The notes below the pieces were generated by a model, which worked only from the letters and a program-made list of their open reading frames with translations, made no database searches and was not told the DNA's origin. A stretch of DNA of 47,723 bases, taken from Leeuwenhoekiella polynyae. Its GTDB lineage: Bacteria; Bacteroidota; Bacteroidia; Flavobacteriales; Flavobacteriaceae. The translations under genes and the position numbers were made by a program. Position 1 is the stretch's first letter, and the number at the start of each line of letters is the position of its first letter. Positions 1,696 to 47,723 of this stretch are shown here, in pieces. The stretch is taken from NCBI RefSeq assembly GCF_004104075.1, contig NZ_QOVK01000027.1, forward strand, positions 1-47,723. Direction: 5' to 3'.

Positions 1696-1718
1696 TGCTA
1701 CGGTTGTTTGCCGTAGCA
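1696..1718 (+). terminator. Orphan rho-independent terminator-like hairpin
   Basis: TGCTACGG and CCGTAGCA form a perfect 8-bp stem around a 7-base loop, followed on the plus strand by TTGTTGTTTT. The minus strand side has no T run. No plus-strand gene lies upstream, so the hairpin either ends an unannotated small transcript or is a relic. Confidence 0.5.
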
Positions 1719-1763
1719 TTGTTGTTTTAAATCTATACTTTCTGCTTATAAGTCAAATCTAGG

Positions 1764-2079
1764 CAGGTTAGAACCGGATATTTGTTCAGGTTGTCCTATT
1801 AACTTTAATAAGAAATGATCTTCTAAGTTTTAGGACGGGTCAAACGTCCAATCAACGCTATAGCTCAAGCGTAGTTACTCCGTATCAAAAGCGTAGATAA
1901 AGCGTGTTATAACCTTACATAGAATAGCTTTTTAACTATCAAATCGGTCAGTACAAATCGGCTCTAGATTAAAACGAGGATCAGAGCTTCATTAATAAGG
2001 GTTCGTTTAATCAGGTTAGAACAGGACACTTTATACAGGCTGTACGTTTAACTTTGATAGGAACCACGGTATTTCTTCT
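1764..2079. repeat. Imperfect direct repeat pair (about 60 bp each)
   Basis: Copy A begins at 1764 and copy B at 2012, both with CAGGTTAGAAC. They stay alignable through ...TTTAACTTT.ATA.GAA... and end at TTCTTCT or TCTTCT. Identity by eye is roughly 70 percent. Copy B ends about 30 bases before the sulfatase start codon, so the repeat may be a duplicated leader or promoter segment. Confidence 0.4.
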
Positions 2080-2108
2080 GGAATATAAACCTTTATCAAA
2101 CTAAGAAA

Positions 2109-3494: not shown

Positions 3495-3553
3495 ATGTTA
3501 GCATTACATTTAATAACTTTATATTCCTTTTGAAAGAATTTTAAACCTTTTCA

Positions 3554-27724: not shown

Positions 27725-27798
27725 GGCCTTGTGGCGCAACTGAATAGCGCACCTGATTACGGCTCAGGAGGTTCCAGGTTTGAATCCTGGCAAGGTCA
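27725..27798 (+). tRNA. tRNA-Arg (anticodon ACG)
   Basis: A full cloverleaf can be drawn: acceptor GGCCTTG with CAAGGTC (one G-T pair), D stem GCGC/GCGC, anticodon stem CCTGA/TCAGG with loop TTACGGC, T stem CCAGG/CCTGG with loop TTTGAAT, discriminator A. The anticodon ACG is at 27759-27761; A34 would be deaminated to inosine to read CGU, CGC and CGA. CCA is not encoded. It lies just before the glycan utilisation locus. Confidence 0.96.
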
Positions 27799-27831
27799 CA
27801 AAATAAGTCTACTTTTGACTATAAAAGTCTT

Positions 27832-28226: not shown

Positions 28227-31200
28227 ATGAGAACATTTTTACAACTCAGGATGCTTAAAAAAATCACACTAGTGACTTTGGCATTATTGAGTACAACCAC
28301 ACTTATGGCTGCTCCTCTATCTGGAGAAATTTCTTTCAGCTATGAACAGAAAACGATTTCGGGAGTGGTCTACGACACACAATCTGGAGAAACTTTACCA
28401 GGTGTAAGTGTTGGTATTAAAGGCGCCAATACCGGTACTATTACAGATTTAGACGGTTCATTTCAATTACAGGTTGAGCCGGGTGCAGTACTCGTATTTA
28501 GTTATGTAGGTTACTTGACTCAGGAAGTACCTCTACAAAACCAGACTTCACTTACCGTAAATATGGAAACTGATATACAGTCTCTTGAAGAGGTTGCGAT
28601 TATTGGTTACGGTAAAGTAAAGCGCTCTAATCTAACCGGATCGGTTTCGACCGTTAGCTCAGAAACGCTAGAAAAAACCAATAAAGTAGACGCGGTTTCT
28701 TCTATACAGGGGCAGGTAGCTGGTGTTACGGTACAACGTACAGATAACAAACCCGGTGGAGGAGGCTTCAACATTCGTGTAAGAGGTGCCAATACTATTA
28801 ATACAGGTTCTGGAAATGGCGGATACAGCCCTGGTCAAAATCCCTTATTTGTAGTAGACGGAATTTTTGTTGATGATATCTCTTTCCTTAATCCGGCTGA
28901 CATCGAGCGTATGGACGTGCTTAAAGATGCAGCATCTGCTGCGATTTATGGTTCACGTGGTACAAACGGGGTTGTAATCATTCAGACCAAGAAAGGGAAA
29001 GAAGGAAAAATGACGGTGCGTTACAACAACTACGTAGGTTTTAAAGAAATCTATAACCTGCCACCAGTATTTAATGGCAAAAGCTATATTCCATTTCTTA
29101 GAGATGTGGTTGTGGGTAACCAGTTCGCTTCTAATACTGATGGTAATTACGGCCAATACTCTGCAGAAGCGGTAAACATCAATGATTATCTGAGTGAAGA
29201 AGAACGTGAAAATATCGCAAACGGAGTTAGTACAGATTGGGTAGACCTCATCACCCGTAATGGTTTTCAGCAAAACCATACCCTTGACATAAGTGGAGGG
29301 AATGAAAACACCGTTTATGCTGCCGGATTAGGTTATACACAGGACCAGGGAACTGTCTACGGCGAGGATTTTAATCGGTATACCTTAAAAGGAAATATTC
29401 AAAGTGATCTTACAGATTGGTTAACATTTGGCTATGATAACTACATCACTTTAGCAAAAACTAATGAAGGAAGTTTAGAAGCTTTTAGAAGTGCCTATCG
29501 GCTTAAGCCTATAGGAAGACCCTATGATGACAACGGGGATTTATTATTCCTGCCTACTCAAAAAGAGACCCAGTTAAGTAACCCTATTTTTGATACCCAA
29601 AACTGGAAATTAGAAAACAAATACATCAATTTTATTGGTAACATTTCCCTTAGCGTTAAACCGCTAGAAGGACTTAGCATTACTACGAAGTTTGCACCTA
29701 ACATCAAATATACCCGTGTGGGAGAATATCGTGGTCTGTACACCAAAAGTGCAATTGGTAACCAGAGTAATACCCGTGCAGAGGTAAACAACTTCTTAGA
29801 CTATTCGTATACTTGGGATAACATTGTTGATTACAGCTTAGATATTGACAATGACAACAGCCTGGCAGCAACACTAGTATATTCCAGATTTTTGCAGGAC
29901 AATGAATCTTATGGTATTCAGGTAAGAAACTTCACATCAGACAACTTCTTATTTTATAACCTGGGAGCCGGTTCAAATGTGAACTCGTATGGAAGCGGGT
30001 TTAGCAGACAGACGTTAGAATCTTATACAGCACGTATCAATTATAATTTGATGGACCGTTACATTCTTACCCTTACCGGTAGATACGATGGAGCTTCCGT
30101 ATTATCTGATGATAACAAATGGGCATTTTTCCCCTCAGCATCATTTGCTTATCGCGTAATACGCGAAGATTTTATGCGTAACCAAAAGGTATTTTCAGAT
30201 CTTAAGTTACGTTTAAGCTACGGGCAAACTGGTAACAACGGTATCGGCGGAGGATTAAACCCGCTGGGAACTCTTTCATTACTCGAATCAAGTTATACCA
30301 ATATTGGCGATGCAAGTGTATCTACGCTATTTGTTAATGGTCTTGCTAACCAGGATCTAACTTGGGAGCGCACTTCAGAAGTAAACGTGGGTTTTGACTT
30401 TGGTTTCCTAAACAACCGCTTAACCGGTAGTGTTGATGTTTACAACCGTAATATTAAAGACATCATCTTCTTTAGACCTTTGCCCACAGTAACCGGTTTT
30501 GGAGGAACCTTTGACAACATCGGGGAGTCTCGTAACCGAGGTATAGAAATAGGCCTTAATGCCAAAATTATAGAAAATGAAGATTTTACCTGGAGTACGA
30601 ACCTCAATTTTGCCAGCAATCGTAATGAGATTGTAAATCTATATGGTAATAGTGATGAAATCATTTTTGGAGCACAGGGCGGAACGTTTATTCACCGTGT
30701 AGGAGAACCAACCGGATCACTTTATGGCTTTAAGTACGACGGAATCTGGCAACTGGATCAGGCTGCAGAAGCTGAATCTTTCGGTCAGAAACCAGGGCAG
30801 GTACGTGTAGTTGACGTCAATGGTGACGGACAAATTACTGAACAAGGTGACCGGGTAGTTTTAGGAAACCCACTCCCAAAATGGACCGGAGGTTTTACGA
30901 GTACGATGAACTATAAAAACTTTGACTTCTCATTCTTTGTATATACTAGTCAGGGCGTAACGATCTCCAGTAATTTTCACAATGCCCGCGCATTCTCATA
31001 TGATGGTGAACCGGCTCGTTTGTGGAATGGATATGATACTAATTATTGGACACCTGAGAACCCTACCAATAACTGGTTTCAGCCCGGTAACGGTGGATCA
31101 TATCAGGGAGCTATCAAAAATATGGATGTATCTTTCGTAAAAGTTGGTTTTATGACTCTGGGCTACGCACTTCCTCAGGAAACTATTCAAAAATTAGGGA

Positions 31201-31349
31201 TTCAAAAACTACGCTTTTACACGACAGTACAAAACCCATTTACATTTAGTAAATACGATGGTTGGGATCCTGAAAATGCCGGTAGAAATACCTATGGTGC
31301 GTCATTTATGGCACGTACGTATATGGCCGGTATCAACTTTACTTTCTAA
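28227..31349 (+). CDS. SusC-type TonB-dependent outer-membrane transporter
   Basis: 1040 residues. The signal peptide probably starts at MLKKITLVTL (residue 9), with eight additional residues before it. Next are a CarboxypepD_reg-like domain (about 42-115: ISGVVYDTQSGETLPGVSVGIKGANTGTITDLDGSF), a TonB-box-like EEVAIIGYG (about 125), the plug domain with SIQGQVAGVTVQ, GGGGFNIRVRGANTI, LFVVDGIFVDDISFLNPADIERMDVLKDAASAAIYGSRGTNGVVIIQTK, and a 22-strand barrel ending in aromatic TYMAGINFTF. It imports the oligosaccharide released at the surface, together with the SusD-like lipoprotein encoded next. It is the first gene of the locus and carries a candidate GntR operator in front. Confidence 0.95.
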   Translation: MRTFLQLRMLKKITLVTLALLSTTTLMAAPLSGEISFSYEQKTISGVVYDTQSGETLPGVSVGIKGANTGTITDLDGSFQLQVEPGAVLVFSYVGYLTQEVPLQNQTSLTVNMETDIQSLEEVAIIGYGKVKRSNLTGSVSTVSSETLEKTNKVDAVSSIQGQVAGVTVQRTDNKPGGGGFNIRVRGANTINTGSGNGGYSPGQNPLFVVDGIFVDDISFLNPADIERMDVLKDAASAAIYGSRGTNGVVIIQTKKGKEGKMTVRYNNYVGFKEIYNLPPVFNGKSYIPFLRDVVVGNQFASNTDGNYGQYSAEAVNINDYLSEEERENIANGVSTDWVDLITRNGFQQNHTLDISGGNENTVYAAGLGYTQDQGTVYGEDFNRYTLKGNIQSDLTDWLTFGYDNYITLAKTNEGSLEAFRSAYRLKPIGRPYDDNGDLLFLPTQKETQLSNPIFDTQNWKLENKYINFIGNISLSVKPLEGLSITTKFAPNIKYTRVGEYRGLYTKSAIGNQSNTRAEVNNFLDYSYTWDNIVDYSLDIDNDNSLAATLVYSRFLQDNESYGIQVRNFTSDNFLFYNLGAGSNVNSYGSGFSRQTLESYTARINYNLMDRYILTLTGRYDGASVLSDDNKWAFFPSASFAYRVIREDFMRNQKVFSDLKLRLSYGQTGNNGIGGGLNPLGTLSLLESSYTNIGDASVSTLFVNGLANQDLTWERTSEVNVGFDFGFLNNRLTGSVDVYNRNIKDIIFFRPLPTVTGFGGTFDNIGESRNRGIEIGLNAKIIENEDFTWSTNLNFASNRNEIVNLYGNSDEIIFGAQGGTFIHRVGEPTGSLYGFKYDGIWQLDQAAEAESFGQKPGQVRVVDVNGDGQITEQGDRVVLGNPLPKWTGGFTSTMNYKNFDFSFFVYTSQGVTISSNFHNARAFSYDGEPARLWNGYDTNYWTPENPTNNWFQPGNGGSYQGAIKNMDVSFVKVGFMTLGYALPQETIQKLGIQKLRFYTTVQNPFTFSKYDGWDPENAGRNTYGASFMARTYMAGINFTF

Positions 31350-31365
31350 AAAAATAAATAGTATT

Positions 31366-32982
31366 ATGAAAAAATCAATTTATATCTCAGCTCTAGCACT
31401 TCTGCTTACCGGTACGCTGGTAACAAGTTGCGATGATTTTCTTGAGGAAACAAACAGACAGGCTATCAGTATTCCTTCTTCAAGAGAAAATGAAGAAAGC
31501 TTTCTACAACTCAATAATTATATCTACGAAGTAACGCGTGACAACACCACCCGTTATGCTCCAGATATGCTTTATGTACTGGAAGATCTCGGTACTGATA
31601 TCGTGACCCGCGCTTCCCCGCTTACCGGTGTTGATGCAATCAACGATTACGTAGACATGAACGCCTCAAATTATGTGATGCAGGTGTATTGGGCGAATCA
31701 ATATAAGCAGATCGCTGCCGCAAATACGCTGCTTGAAAACGCTGATTTGATTGATGGTGTAGAAGAAAGCTTAAAAAACAGAGGAGTAGGCGAAGCCAAA
31801 TTTTTCAGAGCCTGGTCTTATTTTAATCTGGTAGAAAATTACGGAGGAGTACCCCTTGTTACAGAACCCACCACTACCGCTCAGTCTGATTTTATGCGCG
31901 CGTCTGAAGAAGAAGTATATACACTAATTGTTAATGATCTTAATGACGCCATCAGCGCTGTTGATGAAAATCCCGACGAATACGGTCGCGTTTCTAAAGA
32001 TGCTGCCCGTCACCTGTTATCTAAGATATTACTTACACGCGGCTACAAATCTTTTGCGGCTTCAGACGATTATACTCAGGCAATTGCTCTTGCAGAAACG
32101 GTAATCGCAAATCATCCGCTTGAACCTACGTTTGCAGATGTGGTAGATATCGAAAACCAGCGCAATGACGAGGTGATTTTTTCATTCCTTTTTGGAAGCG
32201 AAAGTTCAAGTGTAGGCTGGGGTAATACCAAACATTTACTGTACAAGTTTGAATACTTTAACTATCCCGGATTAGCTCGTGGTAGCTTATATCAAAATGG
32301 TATCGGTAGAATGCCTACTCCATACTTCTTCAATATGTTTGATGAAGAAGATACCCGTAATGAAGAAACCTTACGATATGTTATGTATGCTGATGTGGCT
32401 GAAGACGGACTTGAAGTAGGAGACACTGCCATTTACTTTCCTAAAACGGCCTGGAGCCAGGAACGTATAGACAGCAAGCCGTATGCAGTAATCAATCCGG
32501 ATCAATACCTTGTGAACGACGGGGTTACTAATGTACACTGGCCAATGTTTAAGAAGTTTGAAGACCCGGGAGCTCCTTTCGTTTATGCAAATGAGCGTGC
32601 CTTAGGTGACCGTGATATGGTAATAATGCGCGGGGCTGAAGCTTATCTTATTGCAGCAGAAGCGGCTTTTCAAAATAATAATCCCGGTGCAGCTGTCACA
32701 TATCTTAATACAGTACGTTCACGTGCCGGTATTACTACACCGCTTACTGCGGGTGATGTTGATCTTGCATTTATATTGGATGAACGTGCCCGCGAACTGA
32801 TAGGCGAGGTAAACCGCTGGATGGATTTAAAACGTACCGGTACTTTGCTATCACGCGTTTTAGAATACAACCCGCACGCAGCGCTTAACAATGCGATTAC
32901 CGAGAAAAATCTTCTCAGACCCGTACCACAGGCTGAGATTGACGCTTCCGGTAAGACAATTAGCCAAAACCCCGGTTATTAA
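31366..32982 (+). CDS. SusD-type glycan-binding lipoprotein
   Basis: 538 residues from the ATG at 31366, which begins a proper lipoprotein signal (LVTSC, Cys22); an open frame upstream is not used. SusD features: N-terminal CDDFLEETN, TPR-like helices with FFRAWSYFNLVENYGGVPLVTEP, VSKDAARHLLSKILLTRGY, and the C-terminal RSRAGITTPLTAGDVDLAFILDERARELIGEVNRWMDLKRTG, then LRPVPQAEID..G.T..QNPGY, the standard ending. It captures glycan at the surface and closes the SusC barrel. It starts 16 bases after susC. Unlike many loci there is no separate surface-glycan-binding gene, and a terminator follows. Confidence 0.95.
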   Translation: MKKSIYISALALLLTGTLVTSCDDFLEETNRQAISIPSSRENEESFLQLNNYIYEVTRDNTTRYAPDMLYVLEDLGTDIVTRASPLTGVDAINDYVDMNASNYVMQVYWANQYKQIAAANTLLENADLIDGVEESLKNRGVGEAKFFRAWSYFNLVENYGGVPLVTEPTTTAQSDFMRASEEEVYTLIVNDLNDAISAVDENPDEYGRVSKDAARHLLSKILLTRGYKSFAASDDYTQAIALAETVIANHPLEPTFADVVDIENQRNDEVIFSFLFGSESSSVGWGNTKHLLYKFEYFNYPGLARGSLYQNGIGRMPTPYFFNMFDEEDTRNEETLRYVMYADVAEDGLEVGDTAIYFPKTAWSQERIDSKPYAVINPDQYLVNDGVTNVHWPMFKKFEDPGAPFVYANERALGDRDMVIMRGAEAYLIAAEAAFQNNNPGAAVTYLNTVRSRAGITTPLTAGDVDLAFILDERARELIGEVNRWMDLKRTGTLLSRVLEYNPHAALNNAITEKNLLRPVPQAEIDASGKTISQNPGY

Positions 32983-32988
32983 AACCGG

Positions 32989-33034
32989 AAAATCCGTCGA
33001 TCACAAGGTGAGTCCTGGATTGACGGATTTTTTT
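32989..33034 (+). terminator. Terminator after susD
   Basis: AAATCCGTC (32990-32998) pairs with GACGGATTT (33022-33030), followed by TTTTATT. The loop is long (23 bases), but an inner GATC/GAT pairing extends the stem. It lies between convergent susD and gntR genes. Confidence 0.75.
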
Positions 33035-33050
33035 ATTCAGTTTTAAATAA

Positions 33051-33749
33051 TTAGCTCAGTTTGCTAAAGTGTGGTGTAAGATGATTACGCATGTTCTCTC
33101 TAAATTCATAAGCAGTACCATTACGCAAGGTTTCAACCAGGTCATTGTGAGAGATACTACCCCGCTTCGGTTCTGCGGCAGACTTTGATTCCTGCTGCAT
33201 CATAAAATGAAAAACCGGTAGCAGCATAGATTGAAAACGGTTCAAGGTTCCGTTACCAGACATCTTATAGAGATACGAGTGAAACTCAATCTCGTAAGCC
33301 AGACGGGTTTGAAGATCGGTTTTACAAAGCGGATCATTAGCCTCCCGGTCTACTATTTCTTGTAACTTAACAATATCAGCATCTTTTTTTCTAATGAACA
33401 GCAATTCACTCATACCCACTTCAAGAACCAGTCGTAGTTCAAAAATGTGTTGCATGGCTTCTTCTCCAAGAAGGTCGGGGTCCATAATGCGCTCTATTCC
33501 GCTTAAAATATCAGGTTCTGCAATAAACATTCCCTTGCGCTTTTTAGATTCGACTACGCCAAGCATTCGCAGGCGACTAAGCGATTCGCGCACAATGTTA
33601 CGGCTAACACCCAGGTTTTCGGCGAGTTCAATTTCACCTGGTAAAGAGTCTCCAGACTTAAAACGGTTCTCTTTTAAAAATTCGAGAATACGTTGTTCTA
33701 CCTGCTCAACCAGTGAAACAGATTTAATGGGTTTGATTTTGGAAGACAT
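33051..33749 (-). CDS. GntR-family regulator, FadR subfamily (FCD domain)
   Basis: 232 residues from the ATG at 33749. A TTG at 33788 in frame would add thirteen residues and overlap the control region, so it was not chosen. Winged helix: QRILEFLKENRFKSGDSLPGEIELAENLGVSRNIVRESLSRLRMLGVVE (about 19-68), the classic GntR signature. The C-terminal FCD helical domain (about 95-225) has the metal-ligand histidines in FHSYLYKMSGN, ISHNDLVE and MRNHL. FadR-type proteins bind small carboxylates or sugar acids, so glucuronate or a related uronate is a reasonable inducer (inference). It is divergent from the GH28-led operon, and the 124-bp gap carries strong palindromes, so it probably controls the locus and itself. 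Confidence 0.93.
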   Translation of the reverse strand: MSSKIKPIKSVSLVEQVEQRILEFLKENRFKSGDSLPGEIELAENLGVSRNIVRESLSRLRMLGVVESKKRKGMFIAEPDILSGIERIMDPDLLGEEAMQHIFELRLVLEVGMSELLFIRKKDADIVKLQEIVDREANDPLCKTDLQTRLAYEIEFHSYLYKMSGNGTLNRFQSMLLPVFHFMMQQESKSAAEPKRGSISHNDLVETLRNGTAYEFRENMRNHLTPHFSKLS

Positions 33750-33822
33750 AATGGTTTTATGGTTAATTGCAAATATTTGGTAAATCAACTAAAACTTAAG
33801 ACATTCAAAAAGTAATTTTAAC

Positions 33823-33857
33823 ACATATTTTAAATATATTGCTATATTAAAATATGT
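33823..33857. promoter_or_regulatory. Palindrome between gntR and the GH28-like operon
   Basis: ACATATTTTAA (33823-33833) and TTAAAATATGT (33847-33857) are perfect 11-bp arms around 13 AT-rich bases. Its right end merges with the 33853-33865 operator-like site. The outer ACATAT/ATATGT ends resemble half-sites of the same motif, so this may be an extended or second binding site. Confidence 0.55.
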
Positions 33858-33865
33858 CCTACATA
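33853..33865. promoter_or_regulatory. Candidate GntR operator upstream of the GH28-like operon
   Basis: TATGTCCTACATA: arms TATGT and ACATA, identical to the site before susC at 11 of 13 positions. It ends 8 bases before the start codon of the GH28-like gene, where binding would block initiation. Confidence 0.6.
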
Positions 33866-33873
33866 TAAAATTA

Positions 33874-35286
33874 ATGAATATAACGAATATAAACGATTTT
33901 GGTGCCGTAAATGATGATTTTACGAATAATTCGTTGGCCATTCAAAAGGCCATAGATCATTGTGCCGGCCTTGGTGGCGGAAAAGTCGTTATTCCGCCAG
34001 GCAAACCGTTCCTTACAGGACCTTTTGACCTCAAATCAAATATTGAATTACATCTGGAGCAGGGTGCTGTGCTAAAGGCCTACCCTGACGAAGGTGTTTA
34101 TATTAAAAGCGCCTTTAGAAAAAATCTGGGTGAAGGCACCATCTGGATAGGTGGAGAAAATCTCAGCCAGATTTCCTTTACAGGCGGTGGCACAATAGAT
34201 GGTAACGGCATCTTTTTCATGGGTGATGAGCTACACGACTCTTATGAGCTTAAACCTTTTGAAACGGTAGATCCCAGACCGCACATTCTTACTTTGGTTT
34301 CATGTAAAAATGTAAAGATGCACGGCATTACAGTAAGTAATGCTGCTTACTGGGCGCTTCATTTTATAGGTTGTTATGATGTTTCAATCGCAAACATTTC
34401 AATCTATAATGATATTAAAGTACGCAATAGCGACGGTATTGATCTCGATCATTGCCAAAACGTACGCATCAGCAATTGCCATATCGAATCAGGTGATGAT
34501 TGCATCTGCCTAAAAAACAGAAGGGAATATGAGGAGTTAGGTCCCTGTAAAAATATCGTAATTTCTAATTGTACATTGATTAGTACTTCGTGTGCGATTA
34601 AAATTGGTTCAGAAAATATGGATGCCATAAGCCACGTTACTTTTAATAACTGCATTATTACCGGAAGTTGTAGAGGTATAGGTATTCAAAACCGGGACGA
34701 AGGCACCGTGTCAGACATCATTTTCTCTAACATTATGGTAGAATGTAAGCAGTTTTCTGACGTTTGGTGGGGAATGGCAGAACCTATTTACATTACGGCT
34801 TATCCCCGCGCCTCACACAATCACAAAGATGCTGGTTGGAGGTTAAAGCCCGGAGCTAAAGAAGCCAGTATTGGCAAGGTTTCTAACATCACGTTTGCAA
34901 ACATCAGGTGCAAGAGCGAAAATGGTATTTTCTTGGGAGCTGCATCACCAGATTTGCTCGATAACATCCGCTTTAATGACATTGATCTGGAGATTTCAAA
35001 AACCACCGAATATCCCGGAGGTTATTACGATTGTAGGCCGTGTAAAGATGCCGATTTTATAGGCGAGCAGACCTCAGGTTTTTATATGGTAAACGCCAGT
35101 AATGTGTACATTTCAAACACCACAGTAAACTGGGGAACCCAAAGACCTGATTATTATGGAAACGCGCTTTATGCCGAAAATATAACTCCACTAGTTCTTG
35201 ATAATTTTAATGGAACGGCAGCCTTTGAAAATTTGGAAAGCATCGTTAAAAAAGGAAAAACTCAACTCGAAAAAATCGCAAACTAA
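33874..35286 (+). CDS. GH28-like right-handed beta-helix protein, non-canonical active site
   Basis: 470 residues without signal peptide or lipobox: it begins MNITNINDFGAVNDDF directly, so it is probably cytoplasmic. The beta-helix and two GH28 acid motifs are present: NSDGID (Asn185, Asp187) and SGDDCICLK (Asp208, Asp209). The canonical GHG and RIK motifs are not: their places hold STSCAIKIGSE (about 237-247) and CRGIGIQNRDEG, followed by VWWGMAEPIYIT. That pattern occurs in a subset of Bacteroidota GH28-like proteins whose reaction I cannot state. It heads the operon SSS-MIOX-GH89-HGSNAT-GH2-GH95-nagB. A cytoplasmic uronosidase on an imported uronate-inositol or similar disaccharide is an inference from context. 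Confidence 0.85.
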   Translation: MNITNINDFGAVNDDFTNNSLAIQKAIDHCAGLGGGKVVIPPGKPFLTGPFDLKSNIELHLEQGAVLKAYPDEGVYIKSAFRKNLGEGTIWIGGENLSQISFTGGGTIDGNGIFFMGDELHDSYELKPFETVDPRPHILTLVSCKNVKMHGITVSNAAYWALHFIGCYDVSIANISIYNDIKVRNSDGIDLDHCQNVRISNCHIESGDDCICLKNRREYEELGPCKNIVISNCTLISTSCAIKIGSENMDAISHVTFNNCIITGSCRGIGIQNRDEGTVSDIIFSNIMVECKQFSDVWWGMAEPIYITAYPRASHNHKDAGWRLKPGAKEASIGKVSNITFANIRCKSENGIFLGAASPDLLDNIRFNDIDLEISKTTEYPGGYYDCRPCKDADFIGEQTSGFYMVNASNVYISNTTVNWGTQRPDYYGNALYAENITPLVLDNFNGTAAFENLESIVKKGKTQLEKIAN

Positions 35287-35288
35287 TT

Positions 35289-37448
35289 ATGATTTTAGGC
35301 TTATCATATCTGGATATTTTAGTATTGGTGCTGTACTTCGGTGTCATTGTGTATATCGGTATACGATCTAGCCTGAAGATTAAAAAAGAAGAAGATTATT
35401 TTCTGGGCGGCAGACAATTTGGAAAACTCTTTTCAACATTTGCGAGTTTTGGGCAGGCAACCTCAGCAGACGGTCCGGCAGGTGTGGCAACCACCACCTT
35501 TAAAAACGGCGCCAGCGGAATCTGGAGTTCGCTTTTAATGCTCTTTGCCACTCCTTTATTTTGGATCACAGCTCCGTGGTTGCGACGGTTGCGCATCACC
35601 ACGATGGGTGATTTTTATGAACAGCGTTATGCTTCACGAAAAATGGCCGCGACCTATGCTCTTGTGGGAACCATCGGGATGATGGGCTTGCTCTCTGTAG
35701 GTTATAAAGCGGTTACCACAACGGCTTTAGCTATGACCGGGAAGCCCGCAAGCGAATTGACAGCGACTGAAAAAATTGAAAAAGAAAAAGCAGACCGCCT
35801 TTTTGAATTATCTAACGAAAACTTCACCTACCTCTCGCAAGCTGAGAAACAGGAATTAGCCGAACTCCGACAGGAAAATCCACGGGCGTTATTCAGTTAT
35901 TTTTCTGAAGATGTGCTTATCTGGACCATCTGTTTCATCGTTCTGTTTTATACCGCGATGGGCGGACTCGAAGCTGCTTTTTACACCGATTTGCTTCAGG
36001 GTATTTTTATAATTTTGCTTTCAATCATTCTCATTCCTTTTGCCTGGTCGGCAATTAACGAACAATTTGGCGGTAGCGGAATGATGGATGCGCTCTCAAA
36101 TCTGCACGAGCAATTGCCCGAAAGTACTTTTGAGATTTTTGGTTCGCCTGCAACCTTAGACTTTACCTGGTATTTCATAGTTATGGCTGCTTTAGTATCT
36201 GGAATGACGGTCGTCGCGCAACCTAATCAACTCGTAACTGCGGGAGCTGCAAAAAGTGAAGATGCGGCGCGTACGGGCTTTGTGACCGGTACGTTTATGA
36301 AGCGTATCGTAACCATCTTATGGGGAATGGTGGGCCTTTGTGCCATCTTGCTTTATGGTGGTAAAATCATGAACTCCGATTTTGTTTGGGGTCACGCCAC
36401 CACACAACTATTGGCACCGTTAGGATTGGGACTTGTAGGTTTGATGCTGGCCAGTTTGATGGCTGCTTTGATGTCTACGGCAGATTGCCTGATGATTACC
36501 GTGTCCGGTTTAGTGGTTAATAATTTTTACAAATACTTTTTTCCGGAAAAGTCTGCCAGGCATTACATCTGGGCGGCACGTATTTCGGGAGCTATATTCC
36601 TGATTGGGGCGGCAATCATTACGACTCAATTTGACACGATTTTACAGATATTAAAGTTCATCTGGGAGTTTTTTGTAGTCTTTGTAGCAGCCTTTTGGCT
36701 GGGCTTAAAATGGCGACGCGCAAACCGCATATCTGCGTGGAGTTCGATTCTGCTCACGTTTACCTTGTTTTATCTAATCCCAACGCTCTTACCCAATATC
36801 TTTCCGGCGATGCGTACCGATGAAAGCCTTACGAAGCTTACCAACTCCCGTATTGTAACCCGAAATTATGAGGTAAAGGAAGTCGATCTGGATAACCGCA
36901 TACACGATATCGCCCAATGGGAAAAGCTTCCGCAAAGCGAAAAAGAACAGATCAGTAAACCGGAAGAACTTGCACTGGGCGGTACAAATGCTGTGGATTA
37001 TGCCATGCCGCGACAGGCTATTTTTTGGTCTAAAGGGGTTACGACCGAGAAAGATGGTACCTCCTACGGCCGCGGTTATATTTATCTTGAATTGTACTTG
37101 CTGGACAGTTTGGGTTGGGATCTTTCAAAAAATCCGTATGCCTTAAACGAAACCATAAGACTGGGAATTCGACTGTTATTCCCATTTCTGGTGCTGTTTC
37201 TTATCGCTTTAGCAACTAAACCGGATTCAGATAACCATTTAGCTGAATTCTACCGTAAAATGCGTACCCGTGCTGTAGACAATAGCATTCTGAAGAATCA
37301 GCCCACCACCGAAAAACTTTTATTCCCAAATAGCAATTGGGAAATCTATACCTGGAATAAAAAAGACCGTACCGGCTTCTTGCTGGCCTGTCTTATTGTT
37401 ATACTCATTATTGGATTACTTTACCTGATGGTTTCCCTCGGGTCTTAA
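35289..37448 (+). CDS. SSS-family sodium:solute symporter with large C-terminal loop
   Basis: 719 residues, long for SSS transporters (about 500-600). N-terminal LDILVLVLYFGVIVYIGIRSSLKIKKEEDYFLGGRQFGKLF is the typical first segment and EDYFLGGR motif. Later GGLEAAFYTDLLQGIFII (Na+/substrate region) and LMAALMSTADCLMITVSGLVVNNFYK confirm the family. Two insertions stand out: a charged stretch (about 155-205) between membrane segments 4 and 5, and about 120 polar residues near the end (about 510-630), before two last segments. It starts 2 bases after the GH28-like stop and touches the MIOX start (TAAATG). It should import a small product across the inner membrane, for example a uronic acid, inositol or a short oligosaccharide; substrate inferred from context. 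Confidence 0.9.
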   Translation: MILGLSYLDILVLVLYFGVIVYIGIRSSLKIKKEEDYFLGGRQFGKLFSTFASFGQATSADGPAGVATTTFKNGASGIWSSLLMLFATPLFWITAPWLRRLRITTMGDFYEQRYASRKMAATYALVGTIGMMGLLSVGYKAVTTTALAMTGKPASELTATEKIEKEKADRLFELSNENFTYLSQAEKQELAELRQENPRALFSYFSEDVLIWTICFIVLFYTAMGGLEAAFYTDLLQGIFIILLSIILIPFAWSAINEQFGGSGMMDALSNLHEQLPESTFEIFGSPATLDFTWYFIVMAALVSGMTVVAQPNQLVTAGAAKSEDAARTGFVTGTFMKRIVTILWGMVGLCAILLYGGKIMNSDFVWGHATTQLLAPLGLGLVGLMLASLMAALMSTADCLMITVSGLVVNNFYKYFFPEKSARHYIWAARISGAIFLIGAAIITTQFDTILQILKFIWEFFVVFVAAFWLGLKWRRANRISAWSSILLTFTLFYLIPTLLPNIFPAMRTDESLTKLTNSRIVTRNYEVKEVDLDNRIHDIAQWEKLPQSEKEQISKPEELALGGTNAVDYAMPRQAIFWSKGVTTEKDGTSYGRGYIYLELYLLDSLGWDLSKNPYALNETIRLGIRLLFPFLVLFLIALATKPDSDNHLAEFYRKMRTRAVDNSILKNQPTTEKLLFPNSNWEIYTWNKKDRTGFLLACLIVILIIGLLYLMVSLGS

Positions 37449-38324
37449 ATGCTTCGACTTATGAAAAATACAAATCAAAAAACAGAACCGCTACAAAGTC
37501 TCGATGAATGGGAAGATGACGTGGTACGCCGTTATCCTGAAGAGGCTCATAAAGCCAAGGAAGAATTTCGCAATTACGAGGCTCCTGCCCGCGACACGGT
37601 TAAAGAATTTTACCGCATCAATCACATCAATCAGACCTATGATTTTGTGCTTGAAAAGAAAAAAGATTTTCTTCAGTTTAACCGCCGGGAGATGTCACTT
37701 TGGGATGCAGTCGAATTTTTAAACACCCTCGTTGACGATTCTGATCCGGATATTGATCTGGATCAAACCCAGCATTTGCTACAAACTTCTGAAGCGATAC
37801 GTGCAGACGGGCATTCAGACTGGTTTGTACTTACCGGATTTTTGCACGATTTAGGTAAAGTATTATGTCTTTTTGGCGAACCACAATGGGCCGTTGTTGG
37901 GGACACGTTCCCAGTAGGTTGTGCCTTTTCAGACAAAATCGTGTACCCGGAATTCTTTAAAAAGAATCCCGATTACACTAATGAAGAACTAAATACCAAA
38001 TTCGGCGTATACAGTCCGTATTGCGGATTGGAGAAGGTGCATATGTCCTGGGGACACGATGAGTACCTCTACCACATTTTGAAAGACTATCTGCCCGAGC
38101 CGGCTTTGTATATGATACGGTATCATTCGTTTTATTCGCAACACCGCGAAGGGGCTTACGATCACCTGATGAGTGCTCACGATCACGAAATGTTTAAATG
38201 GGTAGAAAAATTCAATCCGTATGATTTGTACTCCAAGGCTCCTACCCCACCAAACGTAAAAGAACTGCGTCCCTATTATGAGGATTTGGCTGCCAAATTC
38301 TTACCGGACACCCTGAAATTTTAG
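37449..38324 (+). CDS. myo-Inositol oxygenase (MIOX)
   Basis: 291 residues, the size of the animal enzyme (about 285). All six diiron ligands of mouse MIOX have counterparts in matching motifs: His122 (RADGHSDW), His133-Asp134 (FLHDLGK), His203 ([10 protein letters not shown]), His226 (RYHSFYSQH) and Asp259 (NPYDLYSKA). The N-terminal [27 protein letters not shown] and [22 protein letters not shown] segments are also typical. It cleaves myo-inositol with O2 to D-glucuronate in the cytoplasm. ATG at 37449 follows the symporter stop directly; a second ATG four codons later is possible. Its place inside a SusCD locus between a symporter and an alpha-N-acetylglucosaminidase is unusual and implies inositol release from the glycan, or co-use of inositol. 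Confidence 0.95.
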
Positions 38325-38345
38325 ATCATTTTTATAGTACCTGTT

Positions 38346-40598
38346 ATGTCTCTTAAACCGAAATATCAAACTTTCTTTAAGCTTGCCTGTTCCCTTTTTA
38401 TACTTGTTGCACTCAGTTCCTGTAAAAAGGAAACAGAAGTAAAGGCTCAGGAAGAAACGCCCTACCAGGGCCTGCTGAATCGGGTTGTTCCCGAATACGC
38501 AGATGAGTTTATCATCGATTCGCTGCCCGATGCCGGCGATCAGGCTTTTGAAATTGCAGCTCAGGATGGTAAAATCAGTTTGAGAGGAAACAATGGGGTC
38601 GCAATCGCCTCGGCGCTGTATTACTACATCAAAGAGTATGCGCACGGGCAGATCACCTGGAATGGCACCAACCTCAACTTTCCGGAATCGCTACCCTTGC
38701 CCGAGAAACTGGTACGTAAAGAATCGCCTTACGAATACCGCTATTACCTCAACTATTGCACGTTCAACTACTCGATGAGCTGGTGGGATTGGGAGCGCTG
38801 GGAAAAGGAAATCGACTGGATGGCGCTTCACGGCATCAATATGCCTCTGGCTATTACCGGCGAAGAATACATCTGGGACGAAGTTTACAAATCCTACGGC
38901 TTTACCGATGAAGACCTGAAGGATTTCTTTAGCGGCCCTTCGTATTTCTCCTGGTTTTGGATGGGAAATCTGGACGGCTGGGGCGGTCCGCTTCCGCAAA
39001 GCTGGAAAGAAAGCCATCGCGACCTGCAAAAAAAGATTTTAAAGCGTTCGCGCGAGTTGGGGATGAAACCGGTGCTTCCGGCATTTACGGGGCACGTTCC
39101 GGCTTCCTTTAAAAAATTCTTCCCCAATGCCAATCTTAAAAAAACCAATTGGGGCAATGATTTTGGAGACACCTATATTCTTGATGCTGAAGATCCGCTT
39201 TTCGCAGAAATCGGTAAACGCTTTTTAGAAAAACAGGAGGAAGTTTTTGGTACAGATCACTTTTATACGGCAGATACTTTTAATGAAAATGAGCCGCCTT
39301 CAGACGATCCTGAATATTTAGGGGAGTTGAGCGAAAAGATTTTTGAAGGAATGAAAGCCGCAGATCCTGAAGCAACCTGGGTGATGCAGGGCTGGTTGTT
39401 TTACAGCCATAAAGATTTTTGGAAAACACCGCAAATCAAAGGCTTGCTCAGTACGGTGCCTGATGATCGTATGATTATCTTAGATCTGGCGACCGAAATT
39501 GAACCCGTCTGGAAGCAAACCGAAGCTTTCTACGGCAAACAATGGATCTGGAATATGCTACATAATTTTGGCGGAAACATCAGTATGTTTGGCCGTATCG
39601 AGACCGTTGCCGAGCAGCCGGCACTGGCCTTAAATGACAGCACTTCGGGCAATTTAAAAGGTATCGGCCTTACGATGGAAGCCATAGAGCAAAACCCGGT
39701 ACTTTATGAATTGATGACCGATAATACCTGGCGCGACACGCCTATCGAACTCCAGCCCTGGCTGAAAAAGTATACCCGCAACCGCTATGGCGCGGTAAAC
39801 GACAGCATCTTAAAAGCCTGGGATATTTTAGTAGCAACCGCATATAACGGCACCACAATACGCGACGGTGCCGAGTCTATCATCGCAGCACGACCTACTT
39901 TTGAAGGCTACCGCCGCTGGGCACGCACCAAGATGAATTACGATCCGCTTGATTTGCTACCTGCCTGGGACCTGTTTATTGGCGCCAGCGATACGTTTAA
40001 AAATTCAGATGGTTTTGAATACGACCTGGTAGACCTTAGCCGTCAGGTGCTTGCCAACTATGCCCTGCCGGTGCAACAGCAAATGCGTATCGCTTATGAA
40101 AATAACGACAAAGAAGCCTTTAAAAAACACGGCGACGAACTCCTGACGCTCATTAGTGATCTGGACCGACTACTCGCTACGCGAAAAGATTTCCTGCTGG
40201 GTCCCTGGATCGCAGATGCCCGAAGTTGGGGCACCACACCCGAAGAAAAGGCGCTTTACGAGCGTAATGCCCGCGACCTCATCACCCTTTGGGGCGGCCC
40301 TGATAATCCGTTGCATGAATACTCTTGTCGCCAATGGAGTGGAGTACTGGATGATTTTTACAAACCGCGCTGGCAACAATTTATTACCGATATTGAAGCC
40401 AACTGGGATGATTTTGATCAGGAGGCTTTTGATGAAAAAATCAAAGAATGGGAATGGAAATGGGTGAACAAAGAAGAGTCCTACCCTACCGAACCCAGCG
40501 GCAATGCCTTTGAAATCGCAAAAGAGCTTCACGCTAAATACCGAAGCAAAATTGCTCCAATCACGAAGGTTATGCCGCCTATTGACTATAACTATTAA
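38346..40598 (+). CDS. GH89 alpha-N-acetylglucosaminidase lipoprotein
   Basis: 750 residues. Lipobox ALSSC (Cys26). Three NAGLU parts are visible: an N-terminal domain (about 40-125, ending LRGNNGVAIASALYYYIKEYAHGQITW), the catalytic TIM barrel from YRYYLNYCTFNYSMSWWDWERWEKEIDWMALHGINMPLAITGEE, with ADTFNENEPPSDDPEYL carrying Glu314 and Glu316 in the region of the first catalytic glutamate, and the helical C-terminal domain. MFGRIETVAEQPALALNDSTSGNLKGIGLTMEAIEQNPVLYELM fits the second catalytic glutamate. The family removes terminal alpha-linked N-acetylglucosamine. Acting at the periplasm or surface, it would take GlcNAc capped by the next gene product. Follows MIOX by 21 bases. Confidence 0.95.
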   Translation: MSLKPKYQTFFKLACSLFILVALSSCKKETEVKAQEETPYQGLLNRVVPEYADEFIIDSLPDAGDQAFEIAAQDGKISLRGNNGVAIASALYYYIKEYAHGQITWNGTNLNFPESLPLPEKLVRKESPYEYRYYLNYCTFNYSMSWWDWERWEKEIDWMALHGINMPLAITGEEYIWDEVYKSYGFTDEDLKDFFSGPSYFSWFWMGNLDGWGGPLPQSWKESHRDLQKKILKRSRELGMKPVLPAFTGHVPASFKKFFPNANLKKTNWGNDFGDTYILDAEDPLFAEIGKRFLEKQEEVFGTDHFYTADTFNENEPPSDDPEYLGELSEKIFEGMKAADPEATWVMQGWLFYSHKDFWKTPQIKGLLSTVPDDRMIILDLATEIEPVWKQTEAFYGKQWIWNMLHNFGGNISMFGRIETVAEQPALALNDSTSGNLKGIGLTMEAIEQNPVLYELMTDNTWRDTPIELQPWLKKYTRNRYGAVNDSILKAWDILVATAYNGTTIRDGAESIIAARPTFEGYRRWARTKMNYDPLDLLPAWDLFIGASDTFKNSDGFEYDLVDLSRQVLANYALPVQQQMRIAYENNDKEAFKKHGDELLTLISDLDRLLATRKDFLLGPWIADARSWGTTPEEKALYERNARDLITLWGGPDNPLHEYSCRQWSGVLDDFYKPRWQQFITDIEANWDDFDQEAFDEKIKEWEWKWVNKEESYPTEPSGNAFEIAKELHAKYRSKIAPITKVMPPIDYNY

Positions 40599-40608
40599 AA
40601 ACCAGCCT

Positions 40609-41739
40609 ATGACTGTAAAAACTTCAGAACGCTTTTTATCGCTCGACGTATTTAGAGGGCTTACCATCGCCCTAATGATCCTGGTAAACACTCCGGGCAC
40701 CGGTGCAGCTATGTATCCATATCTGGTGCACGCGCAATGGTTTGGGTTTACGCTGGCAGATTTAGTTTTTCCGTCCTTTTTGTTTGCAGTGGGTAACGCC
40801 ATGAGCTTTTCGATGCGTCGCTTTCAGGAAGCTGCACCGGCAGACTTTTGGAAAAAAGTACTTAAACGCACTGCAATCATCTTCCTGCTGGGATTCCTGA
40901 TGTACTGGTTTCCCTTTTTTGAATTTAATGACGGGCAGCTGCAAGTATCTCCATTTTCAGAAACCCGGGTAATGGGCGTTTTACAACGTATTGCGCTGTG
41001 TTACTTTTTTGGTGCGGTGATGGTACGGTATTTTTCAGTTAGAGCTATTTTTATTTCTTGTGTGGTCATCCTCCTTGCTTACTGGGGAATTCTGTATGCC
41101 TTTGGGGAACCGGGAGGCGAACTCGACATGGCGACCAATGCAGCTGCTCAATTTGACTATGCTATTTTGGGCGAAGGCCACATCTATAAAAAAGATGCTA
41201 TTCCCTTTGATCCCGAAGGTATCCTGAGCACGCTGCCCAGTATTGTAAACGTTCTTGCCGGTTACCTTGCCGGTGTATTTATCAGACGAAAAGGCAAATC
41301 CTACGAGACCATTGCCAAGCTGATGCTAGCCGGCTTTCTCGTTTTTGCACTTGCAGAATGGTGGGCGCTTATTTTTCCGCTTTCTAAAAAGTTATGGACG
41401 AGTCCGTTTGCGATGTTAACTATTGGCCTTAATCTGTCTATGCTGGCAGCACTCATCTTTTCAGTAGAACTCAAAAACATCAAATTTGGCACAAACTTCT
41501 TCAACGTATTTGGCAAAAATCCACTGGTGATTTATCTCTTTTCCGAACTGTTTTACATCAGCCTGCGCCTGATTCCTGTAAATGAAAATCAGGACGCTTT
41601 TGAATGGGTAAGTGAAGTAATTTTTCAACGCATCTTCCCGGGTTCCTTTGGAGTGCTGATGACCGCTATTGTTTTTATGCTTCTGTGCTGGGCGCTAGGC
41701 TACTGGATGGACAAAAAGAAAATCTACGTCAAAATATAA
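40609..41739 (+). CDS. HGSNAT-like transmembrane acetyltransferase (DUF5009)
   Basis: 376 residues from the ATG at 40609, 10 bases after the GH89 stop. About ten membrane segments. The start SLDVFRGLTIALMILVNTPGTG, then HAQWFGFTLADLVFPSFLFAVGNAMSFSMRR are the signatures of the heparan-alpha-glucosaminide N-acetyltransferase family, with the HA.W.G.T..D..FP.F core and its histidine. In lysosomes HGSNAT passes acetyl groups from cytosolic acetyl-CoA to terminal alpha-glucosamine so that NAGLU can cut it. Here the gene directly follows the NAGLU homologue (GH89), so the same capping-then-cutting pair is likely in the bacterial envelope. Substrate is inferred; the pairing is direct sequence evidence. 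Confidence 0.88.
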   Translation: MTVKTSERFLSLDVFRGLTIALMILVNTPGTGAAMYPYLVHAQWFGFTLADLVFPSFLFAVGNAMSFSMRRFQEAAPADFWKKVLKRTAIIFLLGFLMYWFPFFEFNDGQLQVSPFSETRVMGVLQRIALCYFFGAVMVRYFSVRAIFISCVVILLAYWGILYAFGEPGGELDMATNAAAQFDYAILGEGHIYKKDAIPFDPEGILSTLPSIVNVLAGYLAGVFIRRKGKSYETIAKLMLAGFLVFALAEWWALIFPLSKKLWTSPFAMLTIGLNLSMLAALIFSVELKNIKFGTNFFNVFGKNPLVIYLFSELFYISLRLIPVNENQDAFEWVSEVIFQRIFPGSFGVLMTAIVFMLLCWALGYWMDKKKIYVKI

Positions 41740-44859
<3,120 letters not shown>

Positions 44860-44898
44860 TTTAAAAAGGATGGCATCCTTTACTATAAAAACCGATTG

Positions 44899-47400
44899 AT
44901 GAAAAAAATGTTCTTCCGTAGTTCTTCGTTGCTTCTTCTGGTGCTTTTTGCACTGCTTTCCTGTACAAATGAAGAAAATTCAGAATCTGAAACTGCTCAG
45001 GCTGAATTGCCCGAATTGTGGTACGATGCCCCGGCACGCGAATGGGTAGAAGCCCTGCCCTTGGGAAATGGTAAAATTGGTGCGATGGTTTTTGGGCGTG
45101 TGAGTGACGAATTGATTCAGCTAAATGAAAGTTCGCTTTATAGCGGCGGACCGGTTCCACAAAGTATCAACCCAGAGGCGGCTTCTTATTTGCAGCCTTT
45201 GCGTGAGGCTATTTTTGCCAAAGACTACGAAGAAGCTACGCTTTTGGCCAAAAAAATGCAGGGCTATTATACCCAATCCTATATGCCGATGGGTGATTTA
45301 TTACTGCATCAGGTCTTGAAAAACGATTCGGTACGAGCCTATAAACGTACCTTGAATATCGAAAATGCGATCACTACGACTTCTTTTGAGTCTGATGGTG
45401 TGAACTATACCCGGGAGTTTTTTACCTCGGCACCTGATAATGTTTTGGTGATGAAACTTACGGCAGATTCGGCCAAAGCCTTAAACCTAAATCTTTCCGC
45501 AGAAAGCCAATTAAGCGCTGAAGTTTCGGTTACCGAAAATCAGGAATTGGTGGTAAGCGGCAAGGCCCCGGCAAACGTAAATCCCAATTACTACAATCCC
45601 GAAGGTGTAGAACCCATTACTTACGACGACCCTGAAGGATGCGACGGAATGCGTTTTCAATACCGCATCAAAGTGTTGAAAACAGACGGCAAGCTAACTA
45701 CTCAAGATACTAGTCTCGCAATCGCTGATGCTTCGGAAGTCGTTATTTTACTTACCGCCGCAACCAGTTTTAACGGTTTTGACAAATGCCCGGACAAAGA
45801 CGGACTTGACGAAGCCAAATTGGCAAGCGAATTTATGCAGGCTGCTTCGGCCAAGTCGTTTGAGCAGTTAAAATCAGATCATATCGTAGATTTTTCGGCT
45901 TATATGCAACGGGTCGCACTTGATTTAGGCAAAACTTCAGAGGATAAATTAAATCAGCCCACAGACAGCCGTTTAAAAGCCTATTCAGAAGCTGCAAACG
46001 ATCCCGAGTTAGAAGCTTTGTATTTTCAGTACGGCAGGTATTTGCTCGTGTCTGCTTCGAGACCCGGCGGCATCGCGGCCAACCTGCAAGGAATCTGGAA
46101 TAAAGAAATGCGTCCGCCGTGGAGTTCCAATTACACCACAAACATCAATGCTGAAATGAATTACTGGCCTGCGGAAACCACCAATCTGAGTGAGATGCAT
46201 CAGCCCTTTTTAGCCTATATCCAGAACGCTTCGGTTACCGGAAGCCGTGTAGCTAAAGAGTTTTACGACGCACCCGGCTGGGTATTGCACCATAATTCAG
46301 ACATCTGGGCTACGGCAAACCCGGTGGGAGATCGTGGTGATGGTGACCCGTTATGGGCCAACTGGTATATGGGTGGTAACTGGCTTACGTTGCACTTGTG
46401 GGAGCATTATGCCTTTACTCAGGATCAAGACTATCTCGCTAAAGTATACCCGGTGATGAAAGAAGCTTCCCTGTTTACGCTGGATTGGTTGGTAGAACAC
46501 GATGGTAAATTAACGACCGCGCCTTCTACCTCGCCTGAAAATTTATTTCTGGTAGACGGTAAAGGCTATGCGGTTACCGAAGGTGCGACTATGGACATCG
46601 CCATCATTCGCGAACTGTTTAGCAACACGATTAAAGCTTCTGAAATTTTGGGCAAAGATGCCGACTTTAGACAGGAAGTTAGTGCTGCTCGGGACCGTTT
46701 AATTCCCTATCAATTAGGTACCAAAGGACAGTTGCAGGAATGGAATCTGGACTTTGAAGAAGAAAATCCGCATCATCGTCATGTTTCGCATTTATTTGGC
46801 TTACACCCGGGTACTTCAATTTCGCCGCTTACCACTCCGGAATTAGCCGAAGCCACAAAAAAGACTTTTGAACTGCGTGGTGATGAAGGAACCGGCTGGA
46901 GTAAAGCCTGGAAAATCAATTTTGCGGCGCGTTTACTGGATGGCGATCACGCCTATAAAATGATTCGTGAATTGATGTTTTATGTAGACCCCTATTCTAA
47001 AGAACATAAAGGCGGTACCTACCCCAATTTGTTTGACGCGCATCCGCCGTTTCAAATCGATGGAAATTTTGGAGCTACTGCCGGCATAGCCGAAATGCTG
47101 TTGCAAAGCCACCTGGGCGAATTGCACCTGCTCCCTGCTCTACCCGATGCCTGGCCTGATGGAGAGGTGAAGGGACTAAAAGCCCGTGGGAATTTTGAGG
47201 TAAGCTTAAAATGGGCTCATGGTAAACTTCAAACTGCAACAATAATTGCAAACAACGATGGAAAAATCACCTTACGCACGCAAATACCTGTTGAAGCGGA
47301 TACCAAAATTTTCGATTCAAAAGCAGATGGTGACTATTTTCTTACTACTTTTTCAGTACAAGCAGGCCAGACGTACCAGATAACAACCAAAAACAACTAA
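44899..47400 (+). CDS. GH95 alpha-L-fucosidase/alpha-L-galactosidase lipoprotein
   Basis: 833 residues from the ATG at 44899; lipobox LLSC. GH95 features: N-terminal beta domain ([37 protein letters not shown]), then the (alpha/alpha)6 barrel with [16 protein letters not shown] (Asn415, Asn417), TSPENLF (Glu547, general acid position) and [18 protein letters not shown] (Asp721), which correspond to the Asn/Glu/Asp set of the Bifidobacterium 1,2-alpha-L-fucosidase. The C-terminal domain has [23 protein letters not shown]. Members remove alpha-1,2-L-fucose or the equivalent L-galactose by inversion. It would trim an outer residue. It starts 39 bases after GH2 and 18 bases before nagB. Confidence 0.93.
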
Positions 47401-47418
47401 TCTAAGTTTTTATTAATT

Positions 47419-47723
47419 ATGAAAATAACTTCAGAAGATAGCAAACAAATCACCTACGAACCCGCAGGGAAATTTGAGGAAACCCGATTTGAGAAGATAC
47501 ACAACATCAGTTTTGAACAATCTACACAGGCTTCGGCTATTGTAGCTCAGGAGATCGCTGATTTAATCCGCAGTAAAGAGGCTGCCGGTGAGAAATGCGT
47601 GCTGGGTCTTGCTACGGGATCGTCCCCAATAAATGTGTATGCCGAACTGGTGCGTATGCATAAAGAAGAAGGGTTGAGTTTTAAGAATGTGATCACCTTC
47701 AATCTGGATGAATACTGGCCGAT
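47419..47723 (+). CDS. nagB: Glucosamine-6-phosphate deaminase, N-terminal part (cut by window end)
   Basis: About 101 codons lie in the window and the frame stays open at base 47723. The sequence has the NagB core start CVLGLATGSSPINVYAELVRMHKEEGLSFKNVITFNLDEYWP, preceded by an N-terminal stretch FEKIHNISFEQSTQASAIVAQEIADLIRSK. That extension is typical of the long Bacteroidota NagB (about 640 residues) that carries a second PIG-L/LmbE-type deacetylase domain at its C-terminus, which would lie outside the window. The enzyme turns glucosamine 6-phosphate into fructose 6-phosphate and ammonia, and fits GlcNAc release by GH89. It follows GH95 by 18 bases. Confidence 0.93.
   Translation, partial: MKITSEDSKQITYEPAGKFEETRFEKIHNISFEQSTQASAIVAQEIADLIRSKEAAGEKCVLGLATGSSPINVYAELVRMHKEEGLSFKNVITFNLDEYWP

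Follow-up and report, generated by a model that had tools for sequence, protein, structure and literature searches.

The gene cluster at positions 28227-47723 of a contig from the flavobacterium Leeuwenhoekiella polynyae probably serves the utilization of a glycan in which glucosamine or N-acetylglucosamine (GlcN(Ac)) is linked through a hexuronic acid to myo-inositol. The target is most likely the headgroup, resembling those of the B series, of a plant-type glycosyl inositol phosphorylceramide (GIPC), with the structure galactose - GlcN(Ac)-alpha1,4-GlcA-alpha1,2-inositol (GlcA, glucuronic acid). Here, the window, i.e. the whole stretch of DNA analyzed, is the entire contig (C27; 47,723 bp of the 4.79-Mb genome G000), and the right end of the locus is therefore unseen. 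The locus comprises ten complete genes followed by a truncated eleventh, arranged as follows.

28227..31349, + strand: SusC/RagA TonB-linked outer-membrane transporter (TIGR04056, 831 bits; cut-off, 368)
31366..32982, + strand: SusD-like glycan-binding lipoprotein (PF07980, PF14322); open reading frame from 31258, with the lipoprotein start at 31366 read from the translation
33051..33788, - strand: divergent GntR-type regulator with an FCD domain (PF00392, PF07729)
33874..35286, + strand: GH28w, a GH28 protein without a signal peptide, proposed alpha-hexuronosyl-inositol hydrolase (PF00295)
35289..37448, + strand: SSF719, a 719-residue Na+/solute symporter of the SSF family, proposed uronosyl-inositol importer (PF00474)
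37449..38324, + strand: MIOX, myo-inositol oxygenase, converting inositol to glucuronate (PF05153, 364 bits; cut-off, 25)
38346..40598, + strand: GH89 alpha-N-acetylglucosaminidase (three NAGLU domains, 500 bits); lipoprotein-like signal by eye
40609..41739, + strand: HGSNAT/NagX-like membrane glucosamine N-acetyltransferase (PF07786, HGSNAT_cat, 33.6 bits; cut-off, 22); open reading frame from 40504, start read by eye
41758..44859, + strand: GH2 LacZ-type beta-galactosidase (NF052611, beta_gal_Bga2A, 1048 bits; cut-off, 999); signal peptide by eye, open reading frame from 41743
44899..47400, + strand: GH95 protein (PF22124, 602 bits); lipoprotein-like signal by eye, open reading frame from 44896
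47419..47721, + strand: nagB-like gene, first 101 residues, cut at the contig end (from the translation)

The preliminary description of this DNA had proposed a GlcN(Ac)-uronate-inositol target split by a cytoplasmic GH28-like protein, and had made the proposal depend on MIOX being present at orthologous loci. GH28w does begin right at its catalytic domain and has no signal peptide. When this protein was used as the sole query against 395 genomes of the phylum, its kind (~52% identity or more) was found in 17, the window's included; two further GH28 proteins with 37-38% identity (G433 and G477) lay in other kinds of locus. MIOX was located within 9 kb of GH28w in 14 of the 17 genomes and in six of the nine genera. 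Two other genomes, G312 and G412 (families f20 and f31), lack MIOX and have inositol-catabolic genes near GH28w: both contain IolG (465-483 bits; cut-off, 355), IolC above its cut-off and an IolE-like protein below it, with IolD and an IolA-type dehydrogenase nearby in G412 only. MIOX or iol genes thus accompany GH28w in 16 of 17 genomes, and eight of the nine genera have inositol genes at the locus, which supports the proposed target; IolC, at these two loci, also supplies the inositol-pathway kinase for which a search had been suggested. In G312 and G412, inositol is thus served at the same place by a pathway unrelated to MIOX, and this replacement is the strongest sign that GH28w releases inositol.

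The catalytic aspartate motifs, N-[SG]-D-G-I-D and G-D-D, were retained in all 12 GH28w proteins aligned. The R-x-K motif, which in GH28 polygalacturonases binds the neighboring galacturonate, was missing from the same 12 proteins; R-G-[IVL]-G-[IL]-Q-N-R-D-E-G stands in its place, and K-x-R-R-E was also common to them. An AlphaFold model of GH28w was confident (predicted local distance difference test score, 91.8) and agreed with the beta-helix of GH28; the solved structures nearest to it were exo-acting GH28 enzymes, namely the T. maritima exopolygalacturonase, a galacturonidase and the Y. enterocolitica exopolygalacturonase. A pectin or rhamnogalacturonan target was rejected because inositol genes recur beside GH28w and the R-x-K motif is missing. 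Heparosan was also rejected as a target, since its use does not call for inositol genes and no heparin lyase was present among the locus families.

The site of cleavage can be approached through the symporter. Signal-less GH28w was found in four of the 17 genomes, which belong to four families, and in all four it is followed by a 719-residue symporter; the remaining 13 proteins are secreted (G375 by a signal read by eye), and none has a window-type symporter next to it (p=4e-4, with kinship ignored). In G412 the open reading frame of GH28w opens upstream, and its start was read by eye, with no strongly hydrophobic stretch ahead of the domain. This pairing of signal-less GH28w with the symporter fits import of uronosyl-inositol before its cleavage.

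Profiles placed SusC, SusD, the GntR/FCD regulator, GH28, the symporter, MIOX, GH89, the HGSNAT-like protein, GH2 and GH95 where the preliminary description had put them; the 101-residue fragment is presumed, as in that description, to be the beginning of nagB. The adjacent SusC and SusD genes are as expected of a SusCD polysaccharide utilization locus, and the SusC is 59-68% identical to SusC proteins of MIOX loci in G228, G115, G164 and G297. The nearest NCBIfam relatives of the regulator were NanR and LldR, all scores being far under their cut-offs. The window MIOX aligned with the inositol oxygenase structure 2huo across 259 residues, and positions H109, H133, D134, H203, H226 and D259, which we take to correspond to the metal ligands of mouse MIOX, were invariant across 12 sequences. 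GH89 aligned with structure 4xwh and retained both acidic positions, two glutamates that are presumably catalytic. By eye, the HGSNAT-like protein retained the aligned His, Asn and Asp of HGSNAT, to which we presume a functional role; it passed the HGSNAT_cat cut-off but failed that of the NagX equivalog NF046061 (169 versus 480 bits). No export signal was seen by eye on GH28w or MIOX.

These assignments suggest an ordered pathway. SusCD would take the headgroup into the periplasm, where GH95 and GH2 would trim fucosyl and galactosyl residues, the activities of GH95 being those of alpha-L-fucosidase and alpha-L-galactosidase. The NagX-like protein would then acetylate the terminal glucosamine using cytoplasmic acetyl-CoA, and GH89 would take off the resulting GlcNAc, much as human HGSNAT acetylates terminal glucosamine before human NAGLU removes GlcNAc. 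The leftover uronosyl-inositol would be imported by the 719-residue symporter and hydrolyzed in the cytoplasm by GH28w, and MIOX would oxidize the inositol to a second glucuronate. Because MIOX turns inositol into glucuronate, both halves of uronosyl-inositol would end as glucuronate for UxaC, the gene for which is present in the window's genome.

The gene set is not a chance mixture, being retained within the genus. Gene order was identical in G144 (93-98% identity) and in two of three named species (L. palythoae and L. marinoflava); the locus of L. nanhaiensis (L072) has no GH2. The window MIOX shares 92-93% identity with those of all three.

Across the family, MIOX scored above the cut-off in 47 of 299 genomes. 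A window-like form (MIOX-A, 362-379 bits) was present in 20 genomes and a second form (MIOX-B, 313-327 bits) in 26; two genomes had both, and three further genomes gave weak hits. Nineteen MIOX-A neighborhoods besides that of the window were read, in most cases over 20 kb on each side; the control consisted of 20 of the 26 MIOX-B neighborhoods, read more narrowly over 10 kb on each side. Within these 10 kb, 19 of the 20 MIOX-B loci had a symporter alongside, but no GH89, GH92, GH115, GH28 or PI-PLC-C1. The exception, in G006 (L169; G006:C3:76500-96499), combines a distant MIOX, containing two in-frame TGA codons, with PI-PLC-C1, two GH92, NagX and a weak GH29 match.

By contrast with these controls, a Pfam scan of one representative per protein cluster showed GH92 (three kinds), GH115 or GH115-like proteins, GH28, NagX, GH89, GH2, GH125, GH29, PI-PLC-C1 and a calcineurin-like phosphoesterase to recur at MIOX-A, with UxaC, UxuA, UxuB or altronate dehydratase at a few of the loci. 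Hidden Markov models (HMMs) built from these same loci gave the following numbers of the 20 MIOX-A genomes: GH92a, 13; phosphoesterase, 11; GH115, 9; GH115-like, 5; PI-PLC, 9; NagX, 9; GH89, 8; GH28w, 4; UxuA, 4; and UxaC, 3. Since some stretches overlap, copy numbers are inflated and presence is unaffected. Two of the nine NagX proteins are distant (G127, 26% identity; G260, 32%), as are three of the eight GH89 proteins (G164, with 37% identity, and G061 and G127, with lower HMM scores). Nearly none of the associated families was found at MIOX-A in G135, G137 and G249, and the locus of G228 unites phosphoesterase, GH115, PI-PLC-C1, NagX, GH89, two GH92, GH2, two GH28, SusCD, MIOX and the symporter. 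Of the extra genes that the preliminary description had suggested looking for in relatives, a phosphoinositide phospholipase C, a phosphoesterase and glucuronate isomerase (three of 20 loci) do occur near MIOX, and ceramidase was found at none of these loci. The NagX label is unsafe at low scores in genus g128, where a protein so labeled in G322 gave only a sub-cut-off Acyl_transf_3 match.

The association extends to whole genomes. At E<=1e-30, GH89 was found in 21 and PI-PLC-C1 in 20 of the 299 family genomes, and these include 8 (Fisher p=1e-5) and 12 (p=1.5e-11), respectively, of the 20 MIOX-A genomes, kinship being ignored in both tests. GH89 lay within 28 kb of MIOX-A in all eight genomes that hold both, and PI-PLC-C1 within 20 kb in nine of the 12, the remaining three having it on other contigs. 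Away from MIOX, PI-PLC-C1 adjoins SusC (L184, L185, L186, L187 and L189), in some cases with SusD or a phosphoesterase, and in L187 and L189 it is also near genes for a TRAP transporter and glucuronate isomerase; such loci are perhaps the lipid-side half of the same diet. At L112, L134 and in G137 (L063), GH95 immediately precedes MIOX, and the DNA read around them contains no GH89, GH92 or GH28.

The identity of the uronic acid is suggested by a second set of enzymes. In the stretches read, GH28w, GH115 or a GH115-like gene was near MIOX in 17 of the 20 MIOX-A genomes. The four with GH28w had neither GH115 nor a GH115-like gene in the same stretch (the right side of the window being unseen), and 13 of the 16 loci without GH28w had one or the other. 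Strict mutual exclusion of the three was rejected, as G207 combines GH115 with a GH115-like gene and Portibacter lacus also breaks it (see below), and the weaker statement is kept. GH115 is a family of alpha-1,2-glucuronidases, and GH28w may therefore do the job of GH115. The core of plant GIPCs is given as GlcNAc-alpha1,4-GlcA-alpha1,2-Ins (PMC6151786, Figure 3 legend). The residue on GlcA is described as mannose, glucose, GlcNAc or GlcN, and the outer sugars as arabinose, galactose, mannose and fucose; B-series heads carrying an amino sugar are the most frequent kind in barley grain, and in the seagrass Zostera noltii the B series is reported to predominate (PMC12201980). Loci with GH92 would suit mannose-form heads and those with NagX and GH89 the glucosamine form, and the arabinofuranosidase-like, alpha-galactosidase-like, GH95, GH29 and GH2 genes of relatives would suit the outer sugars.

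Three other explanations were weighed. It is unlikely that the substrate is a different uronosyl-inositol glycan, such as galacturonosyl-inositol or an undescribed inositol lipid of algae or invertebrates, degraded by the same steps. The solved folds nearest to GH28w would favor this, as would the marine origin of the named relatives and the odd inositol lipids that occur in sponges (PMC6151786), but GH115 or GH115-like genes at those 13 of 16 loci point to glucuronic acid. Glycans of the glycosylphosphatidylinositol (GPI) or fungal type, in which glucosamine is attached directly to inositol, NagX and GH89 would free inositol in one step and GH28 would be unrelated, are quite unlikely targets. 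GlcN-inositol cores are present both in GPI and in GIPC of fungi; as depicted there, the core of GPI is free of uronic acid (PMC6151786, Figure 3 legend). Related loci contain GH92 and GH125 mannosidases and PI-PLC-C1, and G100 and G117 have GH89, NagX and GH92 in the absence of MIOX, all of which speaks for a GPI-type substrate; such a substrate would not account for GH28w, GH115 or a GH115-like gene near MIOX in 17 of 20 MIOX-A genomes, or for the neighboring GH28w and MIOX of Portibacter (G448), G375 and G428, where the 20-30 kb read contained no GH89.

Very unlikely, finally, is the coincidence in one operon of free inositol use, by MIOX and the symporter, with an ordinary locus for GlcNAc-alpha-Gal or a similar glycan. 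MIOX and a symporter without glycan genes are the common arrangement, and the genome has other glycan enzymes elsewhere, including eight GH92 and two GH115 matches. Against this, the association with these partners is seen again in several families and also outside the class, iol genes replace MIOX beside the same GH28 and symporter, and GH89 keeps close to MIOX-A in eight of eight genomes.

Several observations weigh against use of a GIPC headgroup. We infer every substrate and the order of the steps, and the choice of a GIPC-type head over another uronosyl-inositol glycan is likewise our inference. GH28 is known for action on galacturonic, not glucuronic, acid. Unlike the fuller G228-type locus, the window's genome gave no match to PI-PLC-C1 (PF16670) at E<=1e-30; it had no PF04734 ceramidase hit (this family was weak in two of 22 genomes, on other contigs than MIOX), and no phosphoesterase was present among the locus families in the Pfam scan. 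Removal of phosphate-ceramide is consequently unaccounted for, and the organism may feed on soluble heads that others have set free. Ions that are probably free GlcA-inositol and its phosphate were reported from an Arabidopsis gmt1 mutant under infection (PMC11496612). GH28w of G525 has neither MIOX in the genome nor iol genes within ~59 kb, its neighborhood as read containing only GH92, GH89, NagX and SusCD, and genus g128 contributes eight of the 17 GH28w genomes. GH89 and MIOX are on separate contigs in G001 and G006, whose GH89 is accompanied only by MIOX-B, and G100 and G117 have a related locus without MIOX. Among the best 80 of 583 named MIOX loci, many on short contigs, only 12 had GH89, GH92, GH115 or GH28 genes; GH95 was present at a further three. 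Given that most MIOX loci lack these glycosidases, MIOX by itself proves nothing, and its use as a lone diagnostic gene was rejected. In Portibacter lacus (G448), GH28w and a GH115-like gene lie 10 kb apart, and GIPC sugars do not explain the additional GH39, GH97 and GH106 rhamnosidase genes at the G648 locus. A second, secreted GH28 clade beside GH115 at MIOX loci (L034, L042, L044 and L065; e.g. G228 and G044) is a further component for which the scheme does not account.

On balance, we lean slightly towards a bacterial system for plant-type GIPC heads that extends across the phylum and includes a GH28 clade hydrolyzing uronosyl-alpha-inositol and a symporter with uronosyl-inositol as cargo. 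Its modules would be interchangeable: the uronic acid would be handled by either GH28w or GH115, the cap by mannosidases or the NagX-GH89 pair and the inositol by MIOX or Iol, with cleavage in the periplasm or the cytoplasm. The parts belong to known families; the combination, the proposed specificity of the GH28 clade and the proposed symporter cargo appear to be new. As judged from titles and the openings of abstracts, no bacterial locus for GIPC head use, and no MIOX in such loci, was found in the literature. GIPCs are described as major sphingolipids on Earth that make up a significant part of the lipids of plants and fungi (PMC11907402). If the proposal is correct, GH28w is a candidate enzyme for an unusual bond, bacterial MIOX and HGSNAT-like proteins acquire a role, and other communities can be searched for GIPC degraders by a gene signature.

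The locus can be compared with known systems. Like other SusCD loci of Bacteroidota, it clusters SusC/SusD, lipoprotein glycosidases, a regulator, a transporter and catabolic genes; it differs in its proposed inositol lipid head target, its GntR/FCD regulator and the inositol oxygenase within the cluster. In human lysosomal degradation of heparan sulfate, a membrane acetyltransferase (HGSNAT) similarly caps glucosamine and a GH89 enzyme (NAGLU) removes GlcNAc, whereas the present pair is bacterial, proposed to be periplasmic, and beside inositol genes with no sulfatase among the eleven. The NagX equivalog (SO_3504 type) is the best NCBIfam match of the window acetyltransferase, which nonetheless falls short of its cut-off. 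The GIPC-phospholipase C of Botrytis also attacks plant GIPC, with accumulation of inositol phosphate glycans and, in the mutant plant, probable GlcA-inositol (PMC11496612), but it is a fungal phospholipase, and the window's genome gave no PI-PLC-C1 hit. Inositol sphingolipids are likewise a feature of Bacteroides, in a study that concerns production of such lipids; neither "inositol oxygenase" nor "phospholipase C" is mentioned in the text of that paper (PMC9246714).

At the contig end, the nagB DNA matched two further genomic stretches with 95 and 90% identity (C15:85849-86117 and C1:115969-116237) and, weakly, a fourth over 119 bases. This repeated DNA may be the cause of the contig break, and in L. 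palythoae (L073) and L. marinoflava (L074), too, the contig stops just past GH95. Just upstream of the locus, a tRNA-Arg at 27725-27799 is a possible island boundary. Toward the opposite end of the contig, positions 143-4861 contain another glycan cluster, with GH88, a sulfatase with an SGSH-like C terminus and a DUF4861 protein, and at 13734-14975 a curlin-repeat protein near several small reverse-strand open reading frames is perhaps part of a curli-like system.

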